Shown: positions 4,187 through 59,137, counted from the first letter of the stretch. The stretch: DNA of 64,000 nt from a virus (IMGVR_UViG_3300022220_000004:1-64000), one strand, 5' to 3'. The notes: generated by a model from the sequence alone, not told the origin. Numbers and translations are program-made.

Positions 4187-4514
4187 AGCCCAGTTCCTCC
4201 AGTTCTGCCCCGGTCACCCAGTTATCACCGAACGGCCACTTTATCTCTGTGTCCTCATCCCACTCATCGCCGGCAATGCACTCGCAGCGCCAGTACAGCA
4301 ACCAGCCATCACCAGTGTTGTGCGCAACCTTGGTTAGTCTCCGGTCACACCACCCGCAAAGCCCGATCTCCTGACGCCAGATCTTGACGCCGCACATGGG
4401 GAGGAAGCAGATATAGATGGCCGATTCTTTCCACTTGATATAGGCGCCGATCCACAGGTCGTACCAGCGGAAAAAGCGCTTGACCCGCCATCGCTTAGCC
4501 GTCTTTATGGCCAC
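4173..4514 (-). CDS. Phage protein with FRWYDLWIGAY and zinc-knuckle motifs
   Basis: A 113-aa protein. Its N-terminus (RFFRWYDLWIGAYIKWK, then YICFLPMCGVKI) matches a common short phage protein family of unknown function, and here it is followed by a zinc site (CGWCDRRL and RCEC). I use the GTG at 4514, behind GGAAGGGGG; the longer frame to 4955 is a shadow of the next gene. It overlaps that gene by 10 nt. Confidence 0.7.
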   Translation of the reverse strand: MAIKTAKRWRVKRFFRWYDLWIGAYIKWKESAIYICFLPMCGVKIWRQEIGLCGWCDRRLTKVAHNTGDGWLLYWRCECIAGDEWDEDTEIKWPFGDNWVTGAELEELGYELV

Positions 4515-4912
4515 CTGGCTGTACCCCCTTCCAGCTTGGTGTAGTTCTCTTTGATAGCCCTGGCCACAGCTGCGCACTTGCTGCAGATCTGGCCGGCCTT
4601 GGGCCTGGACTTGTCCGGCCCTGGCCACAGGCCGCACAGGGACATGGCCGCAGAGCGTACACCCCAAATATGATCCTTCATACCACCCTTGGCTGTCTGC
4701 CCGAGGTCGGCGCCATGCTGCCTTGCCCACTCTTCCAGATCCTGATAGTAGGGCAGCGTCATGTCCCCGCTTTGGGCTGGCCGATCCTTCACAGAGGCCC
4801 GTAGCTCTTGGGCTGTCTCCTGCAGCACGTCGGCCAGCTGCCTCATGGATTCGTCGTGATCCTCTGCCGTTTCCGGCAACTCCACAATCTCGTACTCTTC
4901 CCCCTGGCTCAC
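4505..4912 (-). CDS. Hypothetical protein with one CxxC
   Basis: A 135-aa protein, helical at the start, with a single CSKC near residue 109 plus another Cys in AMSLCGLW. GTG start behind GGAAAGGGGGG, with a GTGA overlap to the upstream stop codon. Function unknown. Confidence 0.6.
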   Translation of the reverse strand: MSQGEEYEIVELPETAEDHDESMRQLADVLQETAQELRASVKDRPAQSGDMTLPYYQDLEEWARQHGADLGQTAKGGMKDHIWGVRSAAMSLCGLWPGPDKSRPKAGQICSKCAAVARAIKENYTKLEGGTARWP

Positions 4913-45549: not shown

Positions 45550-45875
45550 TCTCTTCTACTCCGTGAAAGTTCCTGACAGGTCCACTCCAGGCGGAACCTG
45601 GGAAAGAACTGCTGCAGGCAGGTCACTTCCCCGAGGGGCACGCTGGACAATTCCAGCAGCATCTCCACGGTCTTGGCATTGTAGCGATCCGACGATGCGC
45701 CAAACACTTGGAATGATTGATCCGCATCATACTCAGGCGGCGCCACGTCCAACAGAGGCTTGATCGCCTCTGCGGTTCTGAGCGCACGGCGCAGCCACCG
45801 GCCATGGTACCACATCCCCCTGGCGCCATCCAGCAGCGGCCCTTTTCCAGCGTACTTGGCCAAGTGATTAGTCAT
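45537..45875 (-). CDS. Hypothetical protein, 112 aa
   Basis: A helical, basic protein, not recognised. ATG at 45875 overlaps the upstream stop as ATGACTAA; the longer frame is a shadow. It sits between the TopoVI-A-like and Dam genes. Confidence 0.6.
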   Translation of the reverse strand: MTNHLAKYAGKGPLLDGARGMWYHGRWLRRALRTAEAIKPLLDVAPPEYDADQSFQVFGASSDRYNAKTVEMLLELSSVPLGEVTCLQQFFPRFRLEWTCQELSRSRREWQG

Positions 45876-46818
45876 CGTCGTAGGCCAGGTCCACATACCA
45901 GTCCGGCACGTAGTCCAGATCGCCGGCGTCCAGGTCTTCTCTCCAGTCATCTGCGTTGGCTTCCAGGCTTTCCCGCATGGCTGTCTCCATCTCCATGAGA
46001 TCTGTGTACAGATCCTCATCCCGCAGTGCCAGCACGGCGTCCTTTACAACCTGTGCCAGGTCCGGCGGATCGAGCGCATCCAGTTCCCACACGTCGTAGC
46101 CAAACTCTGCGACATAGGCAGGGGACCGGCTGTCACCGGCCTTGGCCCACTGCGGCGGCGGGTCCTTCTCTTGGATCTGTGCCATGGTCAAGGCCACACG
46201 CTCAAAGTTGATCGTCGCGCCAGATGAGAATAGGTCAAGGCGCTCTACGATGTCGCGATCCATGTCCATGCCAGACGGATCGTGGTCGCCAACATAGATG
46301 ATGTAGATCTCTTTGTCGTCCAGGCGTTCCCGGAAGTACAGGCGCCGGCCGTGGTCAAACATCTTGGACAGGCTGGAGTACCCACGGTTTGGATGCAGTC
46401 GCACATCCAGTTCCCTGCACACTGGCCCGAGTACGCCGGCGAGCGCATCCTTTTCCAGGAACACTTCAACGTGCTTTGGCTGGTTGATCCAGCGATTGAC
46501 CCTGAACTGTTCCGCCAGGCTCTTGGTCGCAGTGGACGGATCTGTCCAGTGCGGCGGGTAGACCTGGCGCCGGCCGCGATCCTCGATGGCACTCCAGTCG
46601 AGCATGCCGGCCATACGCGCCTTGCCGGCGATGCTGACGATCCTCTTGTAGGATCTCTGGCTGTTGGGTATGATGTCCCTGGCTACCAGCTGGTAGTACA
46701 GCTGGCGTACTGTGAGCCTGTAGCCCATCTCTCCGTACTCAGTCAGGATCGCGTCCATTCTTGCGATCAGATCCTTTGTCGCCTTGGTGAACTTGATCGT
46801 TTTGAACTTTCGTCTCAT
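45868..46818 (-). CDS. TopoVI-A / Spo11-like protein (Mini-A type)
   Basis: A 316-aa protein with both domains of the Spo11/TopoVI-A family. The winged-helix part has RLTVRQLYYQLV, with Tyr41/42 in the place of the catalytic tyrosine that cuts DNA. The TOPRIM part has VEVFLEKDAL (Glu122) and YVGDHDPSGMDMD (Asp178, Asp180) for metal binding. No TopoVI-B ATPase is seen in the window. Such lone A-type proteins of mobile elements were named Mini-A. It may cut DNA to start recombination or aid replication. The C-terminus is strongly acidic. Starts 62 nt after the integrase gene region. Confidence 0.8.
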   Translation of the reverse strand: MRRKFKTIKFTKATKDLIARMDAILTEYGEMGYRLTVRQLYYQLVARDIIPNSQRSYKRIVSIAGKARMAGMLDWSAIEDRGRRQVYPPHWTDPSTATKSLAEQFRVNRWINQPKHVEVFLEKDALAGVLGPVCRELDVRLHPNRGYSSLSKMFDHGRRLYFRERLDDKEIYIIYVGDHDPSGMDMDRDIVERLDLFSSGATINFERVALTMAQIQEKDPPPQWAKAGDSRSPAYVAEFGYDVWELDALDPPDLAQVVKDAVLALRDEDLYTDLMEMETAMRESLEANADDWREDLDAGDLDYVPDWYVDLAYDDD

Positions 46819-49500: not shown

Positions 49501-49534
49501 AAAAACGGCCCGTGGCGGGGATCGCCACAGGCCG
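49501..49534 (-). terminator. Terminator after the DUF2997 gene
   Basis: A 12-bp stem with one mismatch (49506-49517 with 49523-49534), loop 5 nt, followed on the minus strand by TTTTTCCC. It closes the Ycf46/DUF1257/DUF2997 gene group. Confidence 0.75.
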
Positions 49535-49542
49535 CTTGGTCG

Positions 49543-49734
49543 CTACGCTGTTGCCCTTACCCTTTCACCCCCTTCCCGCCCATGTTCCGGCTTGTATTTG
49601 ATCTCGCTCTCGCCAAGTCCAACCAGGAACTCTACAGCAGCTTCGCAACCTTCCCCTTGGAAGCCCTGTGCATCCAACTCGAACTTGCCGTCTACGATCT
49701 TGAAGTCTACCACCCTGGCCCGTGTGTCGCTCAT
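49543..49734 (-). CDS. DUF2997-like protein
   Basis: A 63-aa protein matching the DUF2997 outline: a beta hairpin (VVDFKIVDGKFELDAQGFQG), then GCEAAVEFLVGLG and a final YKPEH. In several bacteria this small protein is encoded beside a DUF1257 (Ycf35) protein and a Ycf46-type ATPase, exactly as here. Start overlaps the DUF1257-like stop codon as ATGA. Biochemical role unknown. Confidence 0.7.
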   Translation of the reverse strand: MSDTRARVVDFKIVDGKFELDAQGFQGEGCEAAVEFLVGLGESEIKYKPEHGREGGERVRATA

Positions 49735-50201
49735 CTCGCCAGCCCCCTTCTCGCAGGCACAGCTGCCATGGTAGGAACAGAGGGGATCACCCTGCCGGTG
49801 ATGTGCCCTGTGTCACGGTCCAGGTCATACTCGAAAGAGAAGCCTCTTGGCAGCGCTCGCTGTGCCAACTTGGCCGCATAGAGGTTCTGTACCGCCTGCC
49901 AGTTGGCCGGCGCATTCCCGTGGGCAATGTCGATCTCTGCCCTGTAGCCGCCCTCTGCGTTCTGCACGAACGCCGTGTCACCACAGTACCTTCGTGGCGT
50001 GGTGTCCAGCCCGCCGTTCAGCCGGCCGATCACCAGGGTAGCATCGTTGCCCCTGGCCTGGTTCGCTCTCCGCCACTTGTGGTATGCCAGCTGGCCGTTG
50101 GGATCGTACACGTAGTCCAGCCCCAGTTCGTCCAGCACCTGGCACAGTAGCGACATGTCTGTTATCTCTGTCTGTACTTGCCCGTAGATACTCACGTCCA
50201 T
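49731..50201 (-). CDS. DUF1257 (Ycf35)-like protein
   Basis: A 156-aa protein. The start VQTEITDMSLLCQVLDELGLDY fits the DUF1257 opening ('lKTeItdl..L..aL.dLG'), and the later GGYRAEIDIAHG and NLYAAKLAQRALPRGFSFEY fit its second half. The middle carries a longer loop than usual. Encoded between a Ycf46-like ATPase and a DUF2997-like protein. Known in chloroplast and cyanobacterial genomes as Ycf35; function unsettled. ATG behind AAAGGGGGATGG. Confidence 0.7.
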   Translation of the reverse strand: MDVSIYGQVQTEITDMSLLCQVLDELGLDYVYDPNGQLAYHKWRRANQARGNDATLVIGRLNGGLDTTPRRYCGDTAFVQNAEGGYRAEIDIAHGNAPANWQAVQNLYAAKLAQRALPRGFSFEYDLDRDTGHITGRVIPSVPTMAAVPARRGLAR

Positions 50202-50229
50202 CCCCCTTTGATTCGATTTGTCCTACATA

Positions 50230-50262
50230 GGAATAACGCCTGACAGCTTGTAAAACTGTCAG
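50230..50262 (-). repeat. Dispersed hairpin element, copy 1 (truncated) with second hairpin
   Basis: Only the inner 7 bp (CTGACAG/CTGTCAG) of the family stem is paired; the outer arm is replaced. The stop-proximal side has another perfect 9-bp hairpin, GGCGGGGTG (50269-50277) with CACCCCGCC (50290-50298). The core GACAGTTTTACA and the CGTTATTCC end, followed by TATGTAGGACAAATC, are intact. Confidence 0.8.
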
Positions 50263-50304
50263 ACTCCTGGCGGGGTGACCGCAGCCGGCCACCCCGCCGA
50301 TAGT

Positions 50305-52032
50305 TTACACATCCAGGATCTCTTCCTCATTGGTGGTGTCCCTGTCGGGAACCGCCGATGACGTTTCAGATGCCCACCGTCGTGCGTCGGCACGCATCTG
50401 ATCGATGGAAGAGGCAGTGCGAGCGCTCATCTTGACCCGGCGCTCGATCTCGTTGGCCAGGTCTGAGAAGGTCATGTCACGGCCTTCCCCCCAGGCGAAC
50501 CGATGCGCAGCCTCTATACCTTGCTCGATGCCCCGAGGATTCAGGCTACCCTTCACCGTGGAGGCGGCGAGTTCCCGCATCTGGCTCATGTTGCCAGTGA
50601 GGATGTCGCCAAGGTCACGCTTGCCCAGGTGGATCTCAAAGACTGCCAGGGCCTCTGTTGCGTTCCTGGGCAGGTCTACGAACCACCTGTCTTCAAACCG
50701 ATCCCGGAGAGGATCGGGCAGGCGTCCAGGGTGGTTGGTGGTCGCAGCCACGATCACCATGCTCTTGCGTTCCTGCATCCAGGATAGCAGCATCTGCTGT
50801 GTCTCGTTGCTGACCTCGTGCTGGCCCTCACTGTCCGATACCAGTAGGTCGATTTCGTCCAGCCAGAGCACGCAGGTGTTGATCGCGTCCGCAGCGTCCA
50901 GGACACCACGGATGTTGGCCGCTGTCTCACCAAGCCATTTCGATTTCGATTCTGCCACTGACCAGCGCAGGATGGGCAGCAGTCCGCCACCGATGGTCTT
51001 GCACGCCAGTGACTTGCCAGTGCCGGCAGGTCCAGCAAACAAGATGGCCCGAGGCGGGCGCACCTTGGCGTCCAGCGCAGCCTGGCTCAGCAACTTGGGG
51101 TAGTGCCTGACAGCTGCCTTGAGAAGGTCCAGGCCGGCCACGTCGGTGATCGGTTCAGGCTCGATCAACTCTATGCCCTGCTGCTTCTTCAAGATTGCAG
51201 CTTTCATGCTGGATACCAGCGGCCCGCACTTCTCTACCGACAGTTCCCTGGCTTCCACTATGGCCTGGCGGAGTACAAACCCCGCCTGTGTCCATGAGAG
51301 AGCCGCAAGGGCCTGCGCCAGGATCTCAGCGCCGCCGTTCTGGATCTCTTCACTGACCGGGATGCTCACCCGTTCCGCCGTGGTCTGCACCATCCCGACC
51401 AGTTCCTGCACGTCGGGCAGTGGCCACTTGATAGTCACGATCTCTTTTTCGCTGTCACCAAGGGCGCTCAGATCCGGCGCCGTGATCACGGCGTAGCTCT
51501 TTGTTTTGAGCAGCCCATAGAACAGGTCCCGCACCGCCCTGATCGACAGTGCGTCACCCTTTGCGTCACCACCACCACCAAGGAACCGGTGCAGATCGTG
51601 CATGATGAGTACACTGGCGTGGTCCACCATGGCCGGCCCTGTCTCATCTGCCTGTGCCCATGCTACAAAGTCCGCCACTGCCGCAAAGGGCTGGTTGGTT
51701 GCCTGCAGCGTTTCCAGATGGGCCTCTGCCTCTGAGTACCGGCGTTCAAGTTTCTCCGACAGCGGTGCAACCATGCCCCCCTTGTCCAGGAACTTGGGGC
51801 GCAAGATCTCCAGCCCGCCGGTGAGAGTCCAGCGCCACACGATCCGCTCTGGCGCCGCCTCTTTGTTCGACCCTGCGCCGCTCGCAAGGCTCATCATTGG
51901 ACTTGCCGAGATTGCCCGGATGTACTTCAAGATCCGTGCCTCTTCCGTGGTTTCGATCCCGATGACCGGGATGCGTGCCCGGATTGCCGTGTCAAACTGC
52001 TGTAGTGCCTTTTCCGTTGCCGTCATCTTCAT
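50305..52032 (-). CDS. ycf46: Ycf46-type AAA+ ATPase
   Basis: A 575-aa protein with Ycf46 architecture. Residues 10-290 are a degenerate ATPase-like half (FDTAIRARIPVIGIETTEEARIL, VLIMHDLHRFL, IVTIKWPLPDVQELV). Residues 300-480 are the active AAA+ domain: Walker A GPAGTGKS (334-341), Walker B VLWLDEID (388-395), sensor TTN (431-433), Arg finger region LRDRFEDR. Ycf46 is best known from chloroplasts and cyanobacteria; the family likely remodels proteins. Downstream lie DUF1257- and DUF2997-like genes, upstream two unknown genes. ATG behind AGGGGGAAG. Confidence 0.88.
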   Translation of the reverse strand: MKMTATEKALQQFDTAIRARIPVIGIETTEEARILKYIRAISASPMMSLASGAGSNKEAAPERIVWRWTLTGGLEILRPKFLDKGGMVAPLSEKLERRYSEAEAHLETLQATNQPFAAVADFVAWAQADETGPAMVDHASVLIMHDLHRFLGGGGDAKGDALSIRAVRDLFYGLLKTKSYAVITAPDLSALGDSEKEIVTIKWPLPDVQELVGMVQTTAERVSIPVSEEIQNGGAEILAQALAALSWTQAGFVLRQAIVEARELSVEKCGPLVSSMKAAILKKQQGIELIEPEPITDVAGLDLLKAAVRHYPKLLSQAALDAKVRPPRAILFAGPAGTGKSLACKTIGGGLLPILRWSVAESKSKWLGETAANIRGVLDAADAINTCVLWLDEIDLLVSDSEGQHEVSNETQQMLLSWMQERKSMVIVAATTNHPGRLPDPLRDRFEDRWFVDLPRNATEALAVFEIHLGKRDLGDILTGNMSQMRELAASTVKGSLNPRGIEQGIEAAHRFAWGEGRDMTFSDLANEIERRVKMSARTASSIDQMRADARRWASETSSAVPDRDTTNEEEILDV

Positions 52033-52067
52033 TTGCTTCCCCCTATGAGATTGGTTTTTGTTTCACA

Positions 52068-52110
52068 GGAATAACGCCCGACAGCCTGTAAAACTGTCAG
52101 GCGTTTTTCC
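52068..52110 (-). repeat. Dispersed hairpin element, copy 2
   Basis: Full 12-position stem between the ATPase gene and the gene upstream. Loop CCTGTAAAA on the plus strand; core GACAGTTTTACA on the minus strand; minus-strand end CGTTATTCC. TTTTT flanks the stem on the plus strand. Confidence 0.85.
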
Positions 52111-52114
52111 AAGT

Positions 52115-52564
52115 TCACAAGTCCACATCCCATGCCTCTGGCACTTCTGGCTCTGTGCTGGCGTAGACCGGATTGGCCAAGTCGTAGTAGTTCTGGCTGG
52201 TGACCACGGTCTGCAGGTCGGTGTCCGAGTAGCGGCCCGTGACTACATAGGTCGCAAGTGCCCCTTTCATGTAGGAGAAGGCAACTGGCACATGATTGCC
52301 GTCGGGCACCTGCGACAGCAGTTCATGAAGTGCTGCCTGCAGGTGCGCCGGCGCCTTGTCCAGATCCTCTATCCGTAGGAACTTTGCCTCTGGCGTAGCC
52401 TCTGGCGTGTATACGACTATGCCAGGCCCGAGATCGCCCGACATGTCAGAGAAGAGGGTGAAGATAGAGTCAAACGCACGCCGCACGTTTGCAACCTCTC
52501 CGCTTGCATGCTCATGCCCAAGCGGGTGCGTGTTTCGCTTTGTCCTACTTGTTCCCTGGCTCAT
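52115..52564 (-). CDS. Hypothetical protein, 149 aa
   Basis: An alpha/beta protein, not recognised. ATG at 52564 with AGGTGA upstream, starting 9 nt after the previous stop. It is encoded between the coiled-coil protein and the Ycf46-like ATPase and is probably part of the same functional group. Confidence 0.6.
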   Translation of the reverse strand: MSQGTSRTKRNTHPLGHEHASGEVANVRRAFDSIFTLFSDMSGDLGPGIVVYTPEATPEAKFLRIEDLDKAPAHLQAALHELLSQVPDGNHVPVAFSYMKGALATYVVTGRYSDTDLQTVVTSQNYYDLANPVYASTEPEVPEAWDVDL

Positions 52565-52573
52565 AGTCATCAC

Positions 52574-54540: not shown

Positions 54541-54853
54541 CTTGTGGCGCCAAGTCCGGGTGCTTCTTGAGTACCCGGTGATAGTTCCTGGAAACAGTCT
54601 TGTAGTTCGGTACGCTCTTGTGTTCCCCGGCGATCACGTCCAGGATCTCTTCTACATCGCCGCGCCGGATCATGTGGTCAAACCCGTAGAACTCTTGCCA
54701 GACCTCTGCCACGGTGCGGCCCACGTTTCCCCTGCAGCGCTTATCAGTCTCCAGGACAAACTTGACCTGTGCAAAGGTGGTAGAGATTGCAGGGCGCACA
54801 TCATCTTCCCCGAACATGTCACCCTGTATCACGGTCATACGTCTATCAGTCAC
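54533..54853 (-). CDS. Hypothetical protein, 106 aa
   Basis: Contains VIQGDMFGEDD near the start and a helical second half with NYKTVSRNYHRVLKKHPDL that has helix-turn-helix character. GTG at 54853 overlaps the upstream stop (GTGACTGA) and follows AAAGGGGGAAG; the earlier GTG at 54880 is less likely. Confidence 0.6.
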   Translation of the reverse strand: MTDRRMTVIQGDMFGEDDVRPAISTTFAQVKFVLETDKRCRGNVGRTVAEVWQEFYGFDHMIRRGDVEEILDVIAGEHKSVPNYKTVSRNYHRVLKKHPDLAPQDE

Positions 54854-55523
54854 TACCCTTCCCCCTTTCTGCTTGGCCACACAGCGGCGCCTCAGTCACG
54901 GTGCCGATGCCAGCCACGTTGACTTCTTCCAGCCAGCCGCCGGCCATGGTCACCTGCCCATCCAGGATGGTGAACAGGGCGGCGCTGTCCCAGTCTTCCA
55001 GGACTAGCTGGCCACTCTCCAGGCTTTCCTTCACCCGGATCACACGTTGGTTGCTAGAGCCAACGTACTGCCTCTTGTCGTCGTCCAGTTCTGCAATGTA
55101 CGGCCCATCCACCAGGACATCGATCTGTTGCATGGCCAGACGTTCCGTGGCCGTCTTCCTGCCGGATGCTTGCAGTAACTCCCATGTGTACCCCGTGTAG
55201 ACTATCACGTGGGCATCAGGATCGTGCGCCCGCAGGCTAGAGAGCATGAGTGCCAGCGCCAGCGGCTGATCAAAAGGCTCGCCGCCGGTGACGGTGTACA
55301 GATGATTGCCCGCCGCACTGCTAAGCACGTTCACGATTCTAAGCATGTGCCCAAGCGCTACCACGTCCAGGCTGTTGCCGCCGGCCGGGTCCTGCAGGGC
55401 CTCGTTCTGGCATCCAGGGCACCTGTTGCGGCATCCCTGGAACCAGATTGTAGTTCGCACGCCGGGACCGTCCACCGTGGACGCATCTGCGATACGTGCG
55501 ATGTTTCCGACTAAGTTGCCCAT
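54846..55523 (-). CDS. Radical SAM protein, NrdG-like activase
   Basis: A 225-aa protein with the radical SAM cluster motif CRNRCPGC (Cys31, 35, 38), then TVTGGEPFDQP (79-89), the S-adenosylmethionine-binding turn. Overall it matches the small activases of anaerobic ribonucleotide reductase, which make a glycyl radical on NrdD. No NrdD gene is in the window, so the partner may be host-encoded, outside the window, or a different enzyme. ATG at 55523 is chosen, 8 nt after GGAGG. Confidence 0.8.
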   Translation of the reverse strand: MGNLVGNIARIADASTVDGPGVRTTIWFQGCRNRCPGCQNEALQDPAGGNSLDVVALGHMLRIVNVLSSAAGNHLYTVTGGEPFDQPLALALMLSSLRAHDPDAHVIVYTGYTWELLQASGRKTATERLAMQQIDVLVDGPYIAELDDDKRQYVGSSNQRVIRVKESLESGQLVLEDWDSAALFTILDGQVTMAGGWLEEVNVAGIGTVTEAPLCGQAERGKGSD

Positions 55524-55551
55524 GTCCAATACCTCCCCTTCTCTGATTGTA

Positions 55552-55597: not shown

Positions 55598-57004
55598 TCA
55601 GTCCACGTTCTCCAGGTACTCATCGAGTGGCATGCGGTGCTGCAGCCCACCATCCAGGTTGGTCAGCTTGGTGGACACGACCTGGCCACTGTGCGCACGG
55701 AAGTGCAGTATACTCGTGCCGGTTGGCCCGTTCCGATGCTTGGCGGTGATCCACTCCATTTGCCCCTTGACCTCCGTTGCCTCTGGCTCATACATCTCCT
55801 GCCGGAAGAGGAAGGCCACGACATCGGCGTCTTGCTCTAGTGCACCGGACTCTCGTAGATCCGACAGCATAGGCCGCTTGTCCACCCTGGTTTCCACTCC
55901 ACGGCTCAGCTGTGACAGCGCCAGCAGTGGCACGTTCAGCTGCCTGGCCAGCAGCTTTAGGCTACGGCTTATATCGTCCACCTGCTCGCGCCGATTCTTG
56001 CGATCATCGTCGGCCGTCATCAGCTGCAGGTAGTCGATGCACAGTAGGTCAAGGCCGTGTTCTGCCTGCTGCCTGTGGGCAATCGCCCGGATCTGTGATG
56101 GCTTGTACGCACCGGCATAGGCCACGCAGATGGGCAGCTGTTCGATCCTGCCCATGGCGTCTATCAGGCGCGGCCAGTCGTTGCCCTCCAGCTTTCCCTG
56201 TCGCAGCTTGTGGATTGACAGCCCGCTCTCGATGCAGGCTAGGCGCTGCGACAGCTGCAGCGCACTCATCTCCAGGCTTATGATCAGGGTGTGCTTGCCC
56301 GCCTTGCCTGCAGCGAGCGCTATGTTCAGCATGGCGGCTGTCTTCCCAACTGCCGGCCGTGCGGCCAGGTAGATCACGTCAGAGTTGTGCATACCGCCCA
56401 GGATCTTGTCAACGTCCACCAGGCCAGTTGAGATGCCGGCCAGGCCCTGCCGCTTGCTGACTAGCTCTACCTCTTCATACAGTTCGGACATCAGTTTGCT
56501 ACTGTCCGCCAGGCCGTCATCACCCTTGCTGGTGGTCGCAGTGTAGAAATTTGTTTCCACCTTTGACAGCACGTCTTCCAGGTCCGTGGCTTCGTCGCAT
56601 GCGTCTATGGCGATGCGTTCCGCCAGGTCCAGCAGGGTGCGGCGCCTAGCAGCTGCCGACACGATGTCAGCATAGTGCTGCAGGTGCACACTTGTCGGCG
56701 TGCGGTCCTGGAGTTCCATCAGATACCCTACGCCGGTGTGACCGTCGGCCGAGATCTTGTTCAGGTACCCCTTGCTTTCCAGGTAGTCTGATACGGTCAG
56801 TAGGTCGATGGCCGTCTGGCTCTGGTATAGCCTCAGGATGGCGGTGTAGATCCAGCGGTGACTCTCGCGCCAGAAGTCGTGCGGGTCCAGCCCAAGAGAT
56901 ACAGATCTGATCCCGTGAGGATCGATCATTAGGGCGCCCAGTACGGCTTGTTCCGCATCCAGGTTGACTGGTAGTCCCTTCCTTGGTTTAGGTTGGCCAG
57001 CCAT
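55598..57004 (-). CDS. dnaB: Replicative DNA helicase DnaB
   Basis: A 468-aa hexameric helicase. The N-terminal domain (15-115) starts NLDAEQAVLGALMID; the RecA-like domain has Walker A RPAVGKTA (216-223), ISLEMSALQLSQRL, Walker B LLCIDYLQLM (320-329), and later SQLSRGVETR and DLRESGALEQDADVV. It would unwind DNA at phage forks. The putative loader and initiator are the two genes upstream. ATG start inside the loader gene's end. Confidence 0.95.
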   Translation of the reverse strand: MAGQPKPRKGLPVNLDAEQAVLGALMIDPHGIRSVSLGLDPHDFWRESHRWIYTAILRLYQSQTAIDLLTVSDYLESKGYLNKISADGHTGVGYLMELQDRTPTSVHLQHYADIVSAAARRRTLLDLAERIAIDACDEATDLEDVLSKVETNFYTATTSKGDDGLADSSKLMSELYEEVELVSKRQGLAGISTGLVDVDKILGGMHNSDVIYLAARPAVGKTAAMLNIALAAGKAGKHTLIISLEMSALQLSQRLACIESGLSIHKLRQGKLEGNDWPRLIDAMGRIEQLPICVAYAGAYKPSQIRAIAHRQQAEHGLDLLCIDYLQLMTADDDRKNRREQVDDISRSLKLLARQLNVPLLALSQLSRGVETRVDKRPMLSDLRESGALEQDADVVAFLFRQEMYEPEATEVKGQMEWITAKHRNGPTGTSILHFRAHSGQVVSTKLTNLDGGLQHRMPLDEYLENVD

Positions 57005-57572
57005 ACGGCTCTTGTCCCCCTTCCCCTAGCATGGCGGTTTCCCGCCCTGCTGATAGCTTCATCTGATTGTGCGCAGTGTCGTACCACTCTTCCAGTACCG
57101 CCGGGTAGATGTACCTGAACCAGTGCGCCCGGTCAGCACTCGTGTTCGCATTCCTGGACAGGTATGCGATCCCGCCTACCGCCTCTACCGCCCTGCCCAC
57201 GGCGGCATGTGACCAGCTTACAGGCGCATAGCCGCCAGTGTCCACCGGCTCACCACGCACGCCGTACAGCGAGATCCCCTGCTGTACCTCTGCCCACGCT
57301 GCCGCCGCAGAGGGTATGCCGTCGATCTCTGCCAGCACTTCCAGCGCAGCTGTGCGGATCACCGCAGGGGTTGGCAATATCGTCGCCTTATCCCATTCAC
57401 TCAGGACACGGAGCACCGCTTGCTCGATGATTGACACCGGCATCCCATCCAGCACCATGGCATAGGTTGCTATGGTGCGTGCGGTCATGCCCGGCGCCGA
57501 TGGCAGGCCGTCATTCAGGTACCGCAGGGCCATGCCGATACGTTCCAGTCGCTTTGGTTGGTTGTCGCTCAT
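56988..57572 (-). CDS. Helicase loader-like protein (G39P/DnaC position)
   Basis: A 194-aa helical protein encoded directly before DnaB. Its N-terminal TIATYAMVLDGMPVSIIEQAVLRVL and FPTPAVIR-like ILPTPAVIRTAA stretch recall phage SPP1 G39P-type loaders. Overlaps dnaB by 17 nt. The identification leans on position. Confidence 0.55.
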   Translation of the reverse strand: MSDNQPKRLERIGMALRYLNDGLPSAPGMTARTIATYAMVLDGMPVSIIEQAVLRVLSEWDKATILPTPAVIRTAALEVLAEIDGIPSAAAAWAEVQQGISLYGVRGEPVDTGGYAPVSWSHAAVGRAVEAVGGIAYLSRNANTSADRAHWFRYIYPAVLEEWYDTAHNQMKLSAGRETAMLGEGGQEPYGWPT

Positions 57573-57573
57573 G

Positions 57574-58782
57574 TCACACTCCCATCTGCGCTAGTTCGGC
57601 TACTGCGTTGGCAGTGATGTCACTGCCGGCCGCTCGATTGTTCCTGCTCTGTGGCTTGCTGGCGTAGAACTGCAGGATCTGCGCCTCGCTTGGCAGGTCG
57701 CCGTTCGTTTCGTACAGCTTCTCCATCTTGTGAAGGTCGCCGGCGATGACCCGCAGGGTGTTGGCTGTTGACGTTGGTGAAACAATGTCAAAGGTCCAGG
57801 CGTCACCGAGTTCACGGCGTGCGTGCAGGACCTGCAGTCCCCATCGTGCCCGGCGTACCAGGACCGATGGCCAGGGCACAGTATTGTCCGGGGACGCAGC
57901 CTGTAGCGCTTCGCCGTAGGCCACGAGTCCCTGTACTATGCCATGCCGCCACTGGCCCACACCGTTGCGGGTCAGCGGCAGTGGTATCCCGAATAGTTCA
58001 GAGAATAGCAAGGCATAGGCGTAGATGTCGTGCCAGGTCAGACTGTACGGGAAGGTGATCCGCCGGCAATACTCCTGCCATCTCAGCTGGCGCCGGTCCA
58101 CGCTCTTGCCTGGCGCCTCGCTACCAACAGGGGACGCGATCTGTGCCCGCTGTTCAGCCGAAAGATCGTCAGGGTTACCGTCCAGGATCGTCTTTCCTGA
58201 TCGGTCCACAGCTGCTGAGTCAGGAAAGGCAGCATCCAGAACAGGCGCCGCTTTGGCGGCGCTTTTTTCTGTTGTATCCTCTGGAGTAGTCTCGTGTGAA
58301 GTCTCTGAAATAGTTTGCGGGTTTCCTGCATCCTTGGTTGCGGGTTCCCCTGGCTCAGTTTGCGGGTTTCCTGCATCCTTGGTTGCGGGTTTCCTGCTTT
58401 GTGGCGGGGTTTCATCTTTGGCTTGCTCGACCAGTAGCCTGGTCAGTTCCTGGTAGTTCACCTTGAACCACAGCCTGGCGGGTACACCTTTCAGCTTCTC
58501 TTTCAGCACCCCGAGTGCTACCAGCTTCTTTCTGATCCGCTCTTGCTGGCTGCGGGTCAGTGCCGTCTCGTGGTAGATCTCAGCCTGTGTCTTGGCCACA
58601 TAGTCAGGGTCCCAGGTGCCCTTGTCACCCCAGTACATGATCTGTCCCAGGAAGAGGGCGGCGCCAACATCGTCACCCAGTGCCCTGGCGAGCGCCGGGT
58701 GAAATGCCACGGGTCTGTCACCCAGGACAGACCAGACGGCTAGGGCGTCCTCACTCCACGTGCCGTTAGACGCTTTTGTCAT
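57574..58782 (-). CDS. Replication initiator-like winged-helix protein
   Basis: A 402-aa protein. Residues 1-130 form a winged-helix domain like phage replication proteins (GAALFLGQIMYWGDKG, KTQAEIYHETALTRSQQERIR, LGVLKEKLKGVPARLWFKVN). A disordered Thr/Lys/Pro linker (about 135-215) contains two copies of ATKDAGNPQT. The C-terminal domain (about 230-402) is helical, as in DnaD-like or loader-binding regions. ATG at 58782, after GGAAG. It is the second gene of the leftward operon. Confidence 0.7.
   Translation of the reverse strand: MTKASNGTWSEDALAVWSVLGDRPVAFHPALARALGDDVGAALFLGQIMYWGDKGTWDPDYVAKTQAEIYHETALTRSQQERIRKKLVALGVLKEKLKGVPARLWFKVNYQELTRLLVEQAKDETPPQSRKPATKDAGNPQTEPGEPATKDAGNPQTISETSHETTPEDTTEKSAAKAAPVLDAAFPDSAAVDRSGKTILDGNPDDLSAEQRAQIASPVGSEAPGKSVDRRQLRWQEYCRRITFPYSLTWHDIYAYALLFSELFGIPLPLTRNGVGQWRHGIVQGLVAYGEALQAASPDNTVPWPSVLVRRARWGLQVLHARRELGDAWTFDIVSPTSTANTLRVIAGDLHKMEKLYETNGDLPSEAQILQFYASKPQSRNNRAAGSDITANAVAELAQMGV
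58245..58268 (+). terminator. Rightward terminator-like hairpin inside a leftward gene
   Basis: GCGCCGC (58245-58251) pairs with GCGGCGC (58256-58262), loop TTTG, then six T on the plus strand. It lies in the linker-coding part of the initiator gene, so it may stop antisense RNA or be a by-product of Ala-Lys codons. Confidence 0.45.
58312..58391. repeat. 35-bp perfect direct repeat in initiator gene
   Basis: Identical 35-bp blocks at 58312-58346 and 58357-58391, offset by 45 bp (15 codons). They encode the two ATKDAGNPQT copies in the linker. A recent slippage duplication, or possible iterons if the initiator binds its own gene. Confidence 0.8.
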
Positions 58783-59137
58783 CGCTTCCATCCTTTTCAT
58801 CGCCGGCCGCATCGCCGTCATCGCCGGCCGCATCGTCCAAGTCGAATGGCGATCCAGGCGCTGTTTCAACCCGCCCGAGTGTGTAGCCGACCAACTGACC
58901 ACCCTTCTTGACCGGAACCATCGGCCCCTCGTGCTGTTCCTGGCTGTCGTCCTGCCAGGTGACTGTCCCACGTGCCCACAGCTGGCCCTCTTTCATCCAG
59001 GTTTCCTCTATCTCCAGGCTCTTGATCTGTGGGAGTTCTGCCACGTCCTCTTCCGTGGCGTGGTTGCCGAAGCCCTGCAACCGCCGTATAGCGCTTGCCA
59101 TTGCCTCGCCAGTTGTCGATCCATTGCCTTGCGCCAT
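58766..59137 (-). CDS. First gene of the leftward replication operon, 123 aa
   Basis: A protein with a helical start, a beta region (EIEETWMKEGQLWARGTVTW, GPMVPVKKGGQLVGYTLG) and an Asp/Gly-rich acidic tail (DDAAGDDGDAAGDEKDG), which is typical of DNA-mimic or single-strand-binding-type C-termini. Not recognised. ATG at 59137 follows AAAGGA. A long structured leader precedes it. Confidence 0.6.
   Translation of the reverse strand: MAQGNGSTTGEAMASAIRRLQGFGNHATEEDVAELPQIKSLEIEETWMKEGQLWARGTVTWQDDSQEQHEGPMVPVKKGGQLVGYTLGRVETAPGSPFDLDDAAGDDGDAAGDEKDGSDDKSV

Follow-up and report, generated by a model that had tools for sequence, protein, structure and literature searches.

Ycf46, Ycf35 (a DUF1257 protein) and DUF2997 proteins are conserved in cyanobacteria and partly in plastids. 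The genes for the two small families form a duf2997-ycf35-fed7 cluster in cyanobacteria, adjacent and on one strand, with an Fe-S gene (Fed7, sll0662) next door (PMC4284462). We found a ferredoxin-like ORF after the two small genes in most of 62 cyanobacterial-type loci. Full-length Ycf46-type ATPases are also present in cyanobacterial genomes, unlinked to this cluster. Synechocystis needs Fed7 when iron is limiting, and the protein has a DnaJ-like protein as a binding partner (PMC4284462). The presence of plastid ycf35 and ycf46 in red algae correlates with marine or freshwater habitat, a pattern that the authors link to iron (PMC5940233).

In viruses, the gene set is already labelled in part, as GenBank names DUF1257 and DUF2997 in Rhizobium phage RHph_I4. 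That phage, Rhizobium phage L338C, Aeromonas phage HJ05 and Pseudomonas phage SM1 are tailed phages that carry the three families in the same order as the window, the 64,000-nt stretch of DNA analysed here, which is part of a 64.8 kb virus record. Unlike the window, they have one or two extra genes between the ATPase and DUF1257, and no Fer4_12 gene was found in them. Their ATPases are only about 20–25% identical to that of the window. Plasmid, verrucomicrobial, planctomycete and nanoarchaeal sets (L108, L111, L119, L132, L156) hold all four families, often with the radical-SAM gene directly after DUF2997. Hsp70, GrpE or WD40 genes lie beside some of these, whereas none was seen beside the window set, where a 430-aa gene is found instead.

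Layout of the viral locus

The record has terminase, portal and tape-measure genes and an integrase, so the virus is a tailed phage. Three genes occupy 52032 to 49543 on the minus strand. The first encodes a Ycf46-type AAA+ ATPase, the second a divergent member of DUF1257 (Ycf35) and the third a DUF2997 protein. The initial annotation had proposed three adjacent genes of these families, and the coordinates, a full-length Ycf46 match and leave-out profiles all agree with it. The cyanobacterial cluster has DUF2997 first, a 4Fe-4S ferredoxin as its Fe-S partner and no linked ATPase gene; in the window the ATPase is adjacent and the Fe-S gene encodes a radical-SAM protein. The features discussed below are as follows, the sister contig being IMGVR_UViG_3300009509_000017.

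49503..49537, minus strand: intrinsic terminator, 15-pair stem and U tract, after DUF2997
49543..49734, minus strand: DUF2997 protein, 63 aa, with invariant G27 and C30; assigned by profile tests
49731..50201, minus strand: divergent DUF1257 (Ycf35-like) protein, 156 aa, supported by leave-out profiles and synteny; AlphaFold2 model without a confident fold match
50217..50262, minus strand: copy of the hairpin and GCGTTATTCCT element, between ATPase and DUF1257
50305..52032, minus strand: Ycf46-type AAA+ ATPase, 575 aa, assigned by Pfam, full-length alignment and motifs
52055..52100, minus strand: copy of the hairpin and GCGTTATTCCT element, upstream of the ATPase
52115..52573, minus strand: 152-aa protein with no assigned function, between the 430-aa gene and the ATPase; matched in size and place by 4411-4869 of the sister contig (L002)
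52574..53866, minus strand: 430-aa protein with no assigned function; relatives are encoded upstream of the ATPase gene, both in the sister contig and in three phage contigs (G009, G010, L032)
54846..55529, minus strand: radical-SAM protein resembling NrdG (PF13353, Fer4_12; motifs CxxxCxxC and GGEP); probable fourth member of the module

The DUF1257 and DUF2997 genes overlap by 4 nt (ATGA), with the DUF2997 start placed on the DUF1257 stop, and they do likewise in the sister contig. The terminator that had been noted after the set is borne out by a stem at 49537-49503 that ends in a U tract, the folded stretch having an energy of -35.6 kcal/mol (z = -3.5). Since a repeated hairpin element (about 50264-50229) lies between the ATPase and DUF1257/DUF2997, it is not certain that the three genes form a single transcription unit.

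The motif AGGAATAACGC has twelve copies, all in the same orientation, on the plus strand of the window when one mismatch is allowed (positions 50229, 52067, 53941, 55551, 59898, 60407, 60929, 61657, 62085, 62493, 63115 and 63634). About 0.6 matches are expected by chance over both strands. The three copies examined each sit beside a strong hairpin in front of a minus-strand gene, and the motif is also present in the sister contig, ahead of the matching genes. The motif is possibly a regulatory or processing element. Elsewhere in the window, a minus-strand gene at 45868-46818 encodes a protein with a match to a PHROG labelled DNA topoisomerase (phrog_6247, E = 3e-91).

Family assignments of the three proteins

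Judged by alignment and motifs, the ATPase is assigned as a full-length Ycf46-type AAA+ protein. Its residues 11-561 align end to end with residues 3-495 of a cyanobacterial Ycf46-type ATPase, the N-terminal lobe included (E = 3e-39), and its C-terminal half matches PF00004 in Pfam (E = 6e-27). There is one P-loop, a Walker A motif (GPAGTGKS, 334-341) in the C-terminal AAA domain, with Walker B at 388-393 (VLWLDE) and a classic-AAA pore loop at 365-369 (KWLGE); the N-terminal lobe has no P-loop. Similarity to FtsH is confined to the AAA domain.

Two other candidate relatives were set aside. The match to the defence ATPase IetA spans only residues ~321-536, which is the AAA half, and scores 54.4 bits against a curated cut-off of 510; with no full-length match, an IetA identity was dropped. 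ATV p529 (PMC4124505), which has been studied by experiment, was a candidate relative of the archaeal viral ATPase; it was excluded because it has its ATPase domain at the N-terminus and ATSV A525 does not.

The 156-aa protein was the most difficult to assign. It had no matches in Pfam, PHROG or NCBIfam, and Pfam was also blank for the sister protein; neither reached the Pfam gathering cut-off for DUF1257 (PF06868). A tblastn search against phages gave no match, hhalign with small profiles gave nothing useful, and a comparison with a 4-sequence profile was negative. In one DUF1257 alignment, no stretch was conserved enough to serve as a search query. A profile of viral DUF1257 members built without the 156-aa protein did recover it, at E = 0.0018 among 10,648 ORFs. 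We then used larger profiles to which plasmid relatives were added, with both the window and sister proteins left out. In hmmsearch these gave E-values of 7.7e-5 and 1.6e-4, while the best of 1000 shuffles reached 0.99 and 25, respectively. With a leave-out profile of 107 sequences, the hhalign match covered residues 3-148, and 60 shuffled pairs stayed at or below 3%. The N-terminal MSH motif, which is common among DUF1257 members but does not define them, is absent (MDVSIYG in the window, MSVYG in the sister). The AlphaFold2 model of the protein (pLDDT 82) had no confident match in BFVD or PDB. Because of the leave-out profile tests and its position, we take the 156-aa protein as a divergent DUF1257 (Ycf35-like) protein, an assignment that profile comparison supports. 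At another locus, one ORF (L049:7419-8060) has a DUF1257 match together with a weak one to DUF2997 (E = 0.007) and may be a fusion.

Against DUF2997 (PF11211), the 63-aa protein gave E = 0.009 and 16.3 bits, below the Pfam cut-off of 24.1, while the sister protein clears that cut-off (1e-6, 28.9 bits). A DUF2997 profile without either of them found the 63-aa protein by hmmsearch at 4e-6. The leave-out profiles confirm it as a predicted DUF2997 member, and G27 and C30 are invariant across 50 sequences of the family. The two small proteins could have belonged to families unrelated to those first proposed; they do not, since both assignments hold, DUF1257 included (hhalign 94.8% for DUF1257 and 96.2% for DUF2997). 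The predicted DUF2997 model was poor (pLDDT 50) and unfit for a fold search, and a weak match between DUF2997 and SufU (E about 0.5) was taken as chance.

DUF2997-like small proteins with His-rich C-termini and without the invariant cysteine were seen beside related ATPases at five loci (L026, L031, L034, L039 and L054). The one in L034 adjoins a DUF3150 protein and a weak DUF1257 match; the open literature searched yielded nothing on DUF3150.

A radical-SAM gene near the set

The product of the gene at 55529-54846 matched PF13353 (Fer4_12) with E = 4e-30, and the CxxxCxxC motif was seen in the aligned set. Its best NCBIfam match is NrdG, yet the score of 106.3 bits is under the equivalog cut-off of 126.1, and module-linked relatives are also under it (63.7–118.9 bits).

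Linkage of this gene to the trio recurs outside the window. Among cellular loci, which were picked by DUF1257 and not by Fer4_12, seven genomes have a Fer4_12 gene at most about 8 kb from DUF1257, and it is the sole strong Fer4_12 gene there or one of two. These seven include close relatives, so the independent linkage events are fewer than seven. In an eighth genome, by our reading, Fer4_12 lies ~15 kb from DUF1257 on the same contig; in a ninth its neighbour is a second Ycf46-type ATPase. Phages G009 and G010 carry the radical-SAM gene, the 430-aa gene, the ATPase, DUF1257 and DUF2997 on one strand and in the order of the window; the G010 ATPase was placed outside the neighbourhood stretch, but on the same strand and contig. 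A strong radical-SAM match was present in 6 of 33 module-bearing viral records (the window counted) versus 0 of 18 ATPase-only records, a difference that is suggestive only. Given that frequency, and a position four genes away from the trio in the window, we regard the gene as an optional member.

Another explanation is that the protein is an ordinary NrdG, unrelated to a trio that works alone. The identity of the best family match, the distance of four genes and the fact that phages do carry nrdG genes (PHROG 626) would all fit this, while the sub-threshold score and the recurrence of the linkage in plasmids, bacteria and archaea argue against it. So does the lack of the expected partner. The searches for NrdD, which took in the window record and its relatives, came up empty for eight elements, for phages G009 and G010 and for eight of nine cellular genomes that carry the radical-SAM gene, and no glycyl-radical domain was found in 14 records; in both searches some records were fragments or metagenome-assembled genomes. 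With NrdD not found, we rejected a plain NrdG identity for the gene, and we consider an unrelated NrdG improbable. The NrdG-like radical-SAM protein is instead a probable fourth component, added to the three described earlier.

Distribution, neighbours and possible function

Viral loci with DUF1257 and DUF2997 together number about 30, and most of them also have the ATPase. Among isolated phages, whole-record Pfam searches detected both families for Rhizobium, Aeromonas and Pseudomonas, and DUF2997 for Rhodobacter and Agrobacterium; iterated profiles added DUF1257 for the last two hosts and both families in Acidianus tailed spindle virus. Among 80 viral contigs fetched by the ATPase, 19 had DUF1257 or DUF2997 and 16 had both. 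The two small genes were on the same strand in all 114 loci that had both. The initial annotation gave ycf46 and ycf35 as clustered in other bacteria as well, which was right but understated, as archaea, plasmids and many viruses have the set too. The families were found together on plasmids of Trichormus, Pseudanabaena, Bacillus licheniformis, Paenibacillus polymyxa and Paenarthrobacter, and in cells of Verrucomicrobiota, Planctomycetota, Desulfomonilaceae and archaea including Borrarchaeum and Nanoarchaeia.

In Acidianus tailed spindle virus (L015:3320-5550), an archaeal virus of the Bicaudaviridae, the ATPase, DUF1257-like and DUF2997-like genes stand in a row. In two large viral contigs of 219 kb and 548 kb (L093 and L099), the ATPase and DUF2997 are far apart and not clustered, and the 219 kb contig also has a distant DUF1257.

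The initial annotation left open whether the set came from a host or was of phage origin and proposed a phylogeny. In the ATPase tree, viral, plasmid and cellular members are interleaved, and the window and sister ATPases form a long branch near phage contigs L026, L027, L028 and L032, where long-branch effects are possible, and have no close cellular relative. This bears on the idea that the set is auxiliary cargo, a group of chaperones for iron or oxidative stress that sustains host Fe-S metabolism with no phage-specific target. The interleaving of hosts and viruses fits such cargo, as do the phenotype that Fed7, encoded next door, shows under iron limitation in Synechocystis (PMC4284462) and the habitat-linked loss of ycf35 and ycf46 from red algal plastids (PMC5940233). 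However, the window lineage is deeply diverged from all cellular members found and gene order is kept across distant phages, which together suggest long phage-specific selection. We think that host-directed cargo is rather unlikely.

Chaperone genes are frequent cellular neighbours of the set. Hsp70 adjoins 9 of 18 cellular loci and one plasmid locus, which also has an annotated GrpE gene; WD40 genes lie next to several cellular loci. Because relatives in phages, plasmids and cells suggest a tie between the radical-SAM gene and the trio, the module is probably a travelling Fe-S-linked protein-handling machine. The initial annotation had suggested that the phage uses a protein-remodelling or cofactor-loading machine during infection; the classic-AAA pore loop, the Fe-S and Hsp70 neighbours and the DUF2997 cysteine fit this suggestion, and its functional side is what we infer from them.

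Our preferred reading, which we put forward tentatively, builds on the observed gene identities, motifs and conserved linkage. It is that the module is an Fe-S- or thiol-linked protein-remodelling machine, with Ycf46 as the motor, DUF1257 and DUF2997 as partners, and probably the radical-SAM protein as well. The ATPase would form a ring and thread or remodel a client protein via its W-L-G pore loop, while DUF1257 and DUF2997 would act as adaptors that pick out the client or keep hold of it. The invariant cysteine of DUF2997 and the Fe-S partner (radical-SAM here, a 4Fe-4S ferredoxin in cyanobacteria) may couple the reaction to Fe-S, thiol or radical chemistry. One outcome could be the maturation or repair of an oxidised or Fe-S/radical-modified protein needed in infection. 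Several observations count against this reading: the radical-SAM gene is optional among viruses, several phages have replication genes, not Fe-S genes, as neighbours, the DUF1257 model had no fold match and the DUF2997 model was poor, and a cysteine-less, His-tailed DUF2997-like variant lies beside related ATPases.

An accessory role in replication, with the ATPase and its two small partners loading, unloading or remodelling the replication proteins of the phage, is the main rival because of where the module sits. In the window, genes for the DnaB helicase and a replication initiator (55598-58971) flank it on one side and a RusA-like resolvase gene on the other. The Rhizobium phage sets adjoin DnaB and DNA polymerase genes, in the order ATPase, X, DUF1257, DUF2997, a small gene, a 475-aa gene, a 187-aa gene, DnaB and DNA polymerase I. 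Early phage regions hold many unrelated genes, though, and the cellular and plasmid versions are mostly beside Fe-S, Hsp70 and WD40 genes, not replication genes. The pore loop is also of the protein-threading type. We judge a replication role unlikely, while treating it as a serious alternative.

The same cellular neighbours (Hsp70, GrpE, WD40) are in the style of NTP-dependent conflict systems, and the module is spread over phages, plasmids and an archaeal virus. It might then serve defence, counter-defence or competition between mobile elements. FtsH ternary conflict systems (Kaur et al. 2020, PMC7159879) resemble it in combining an AAA-type ATPase, small proteins and a radical-SAM enzyme whose proposed substrate is a peptide effector. 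They differ in using another ATPase family and in being MoxR-vWA centred, and the main text of that paper does not mention Ycf46, DUF1257 or DUF2997 (PMC7159879). The AAA domain of the window ATPase is similar to that of IetA, but only in that half of the protein, and PADLOC matched neither the small proteins nor the radical-SAM protein. In addition, these families occur as regular genes of the genome, DUF1257 and DUF2997 in cyanobacteria and Ycf35 and Ycf46 in plastids. A conflict role therefore seems doubtful to us, and quite unlikely.

A more specific form of the remodelling machine is speculative and, in our estimate, very unlikely to be right in full. The radical-SAM protein might modify DUF2997 at or near its invariant G-x-x-C, with DUF1257 as a holder and the Ycf46 ring loading or releasing the product. 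The module would then be an ATP-driven system built on a radical-modified small protein and common to viruses, plasmids, bacteria and archaea.

In the open literature searched, where three papers name DUF1257 and two DUF2997, we found no description of the viral set or of its radical-SAM partner. We claim novelty for this combination relative to that searched literature only. The biochemistry of Ycf46, Ycf35 and DUF2997 is unsettled, and the compact sets in phages, plasmids and archaea offer small systems in which to test it. The recurrent orphan radical-SAM or ferredoxin partner leads to a concrete and testable idea, that of Fe-S-linked protein remodelling.
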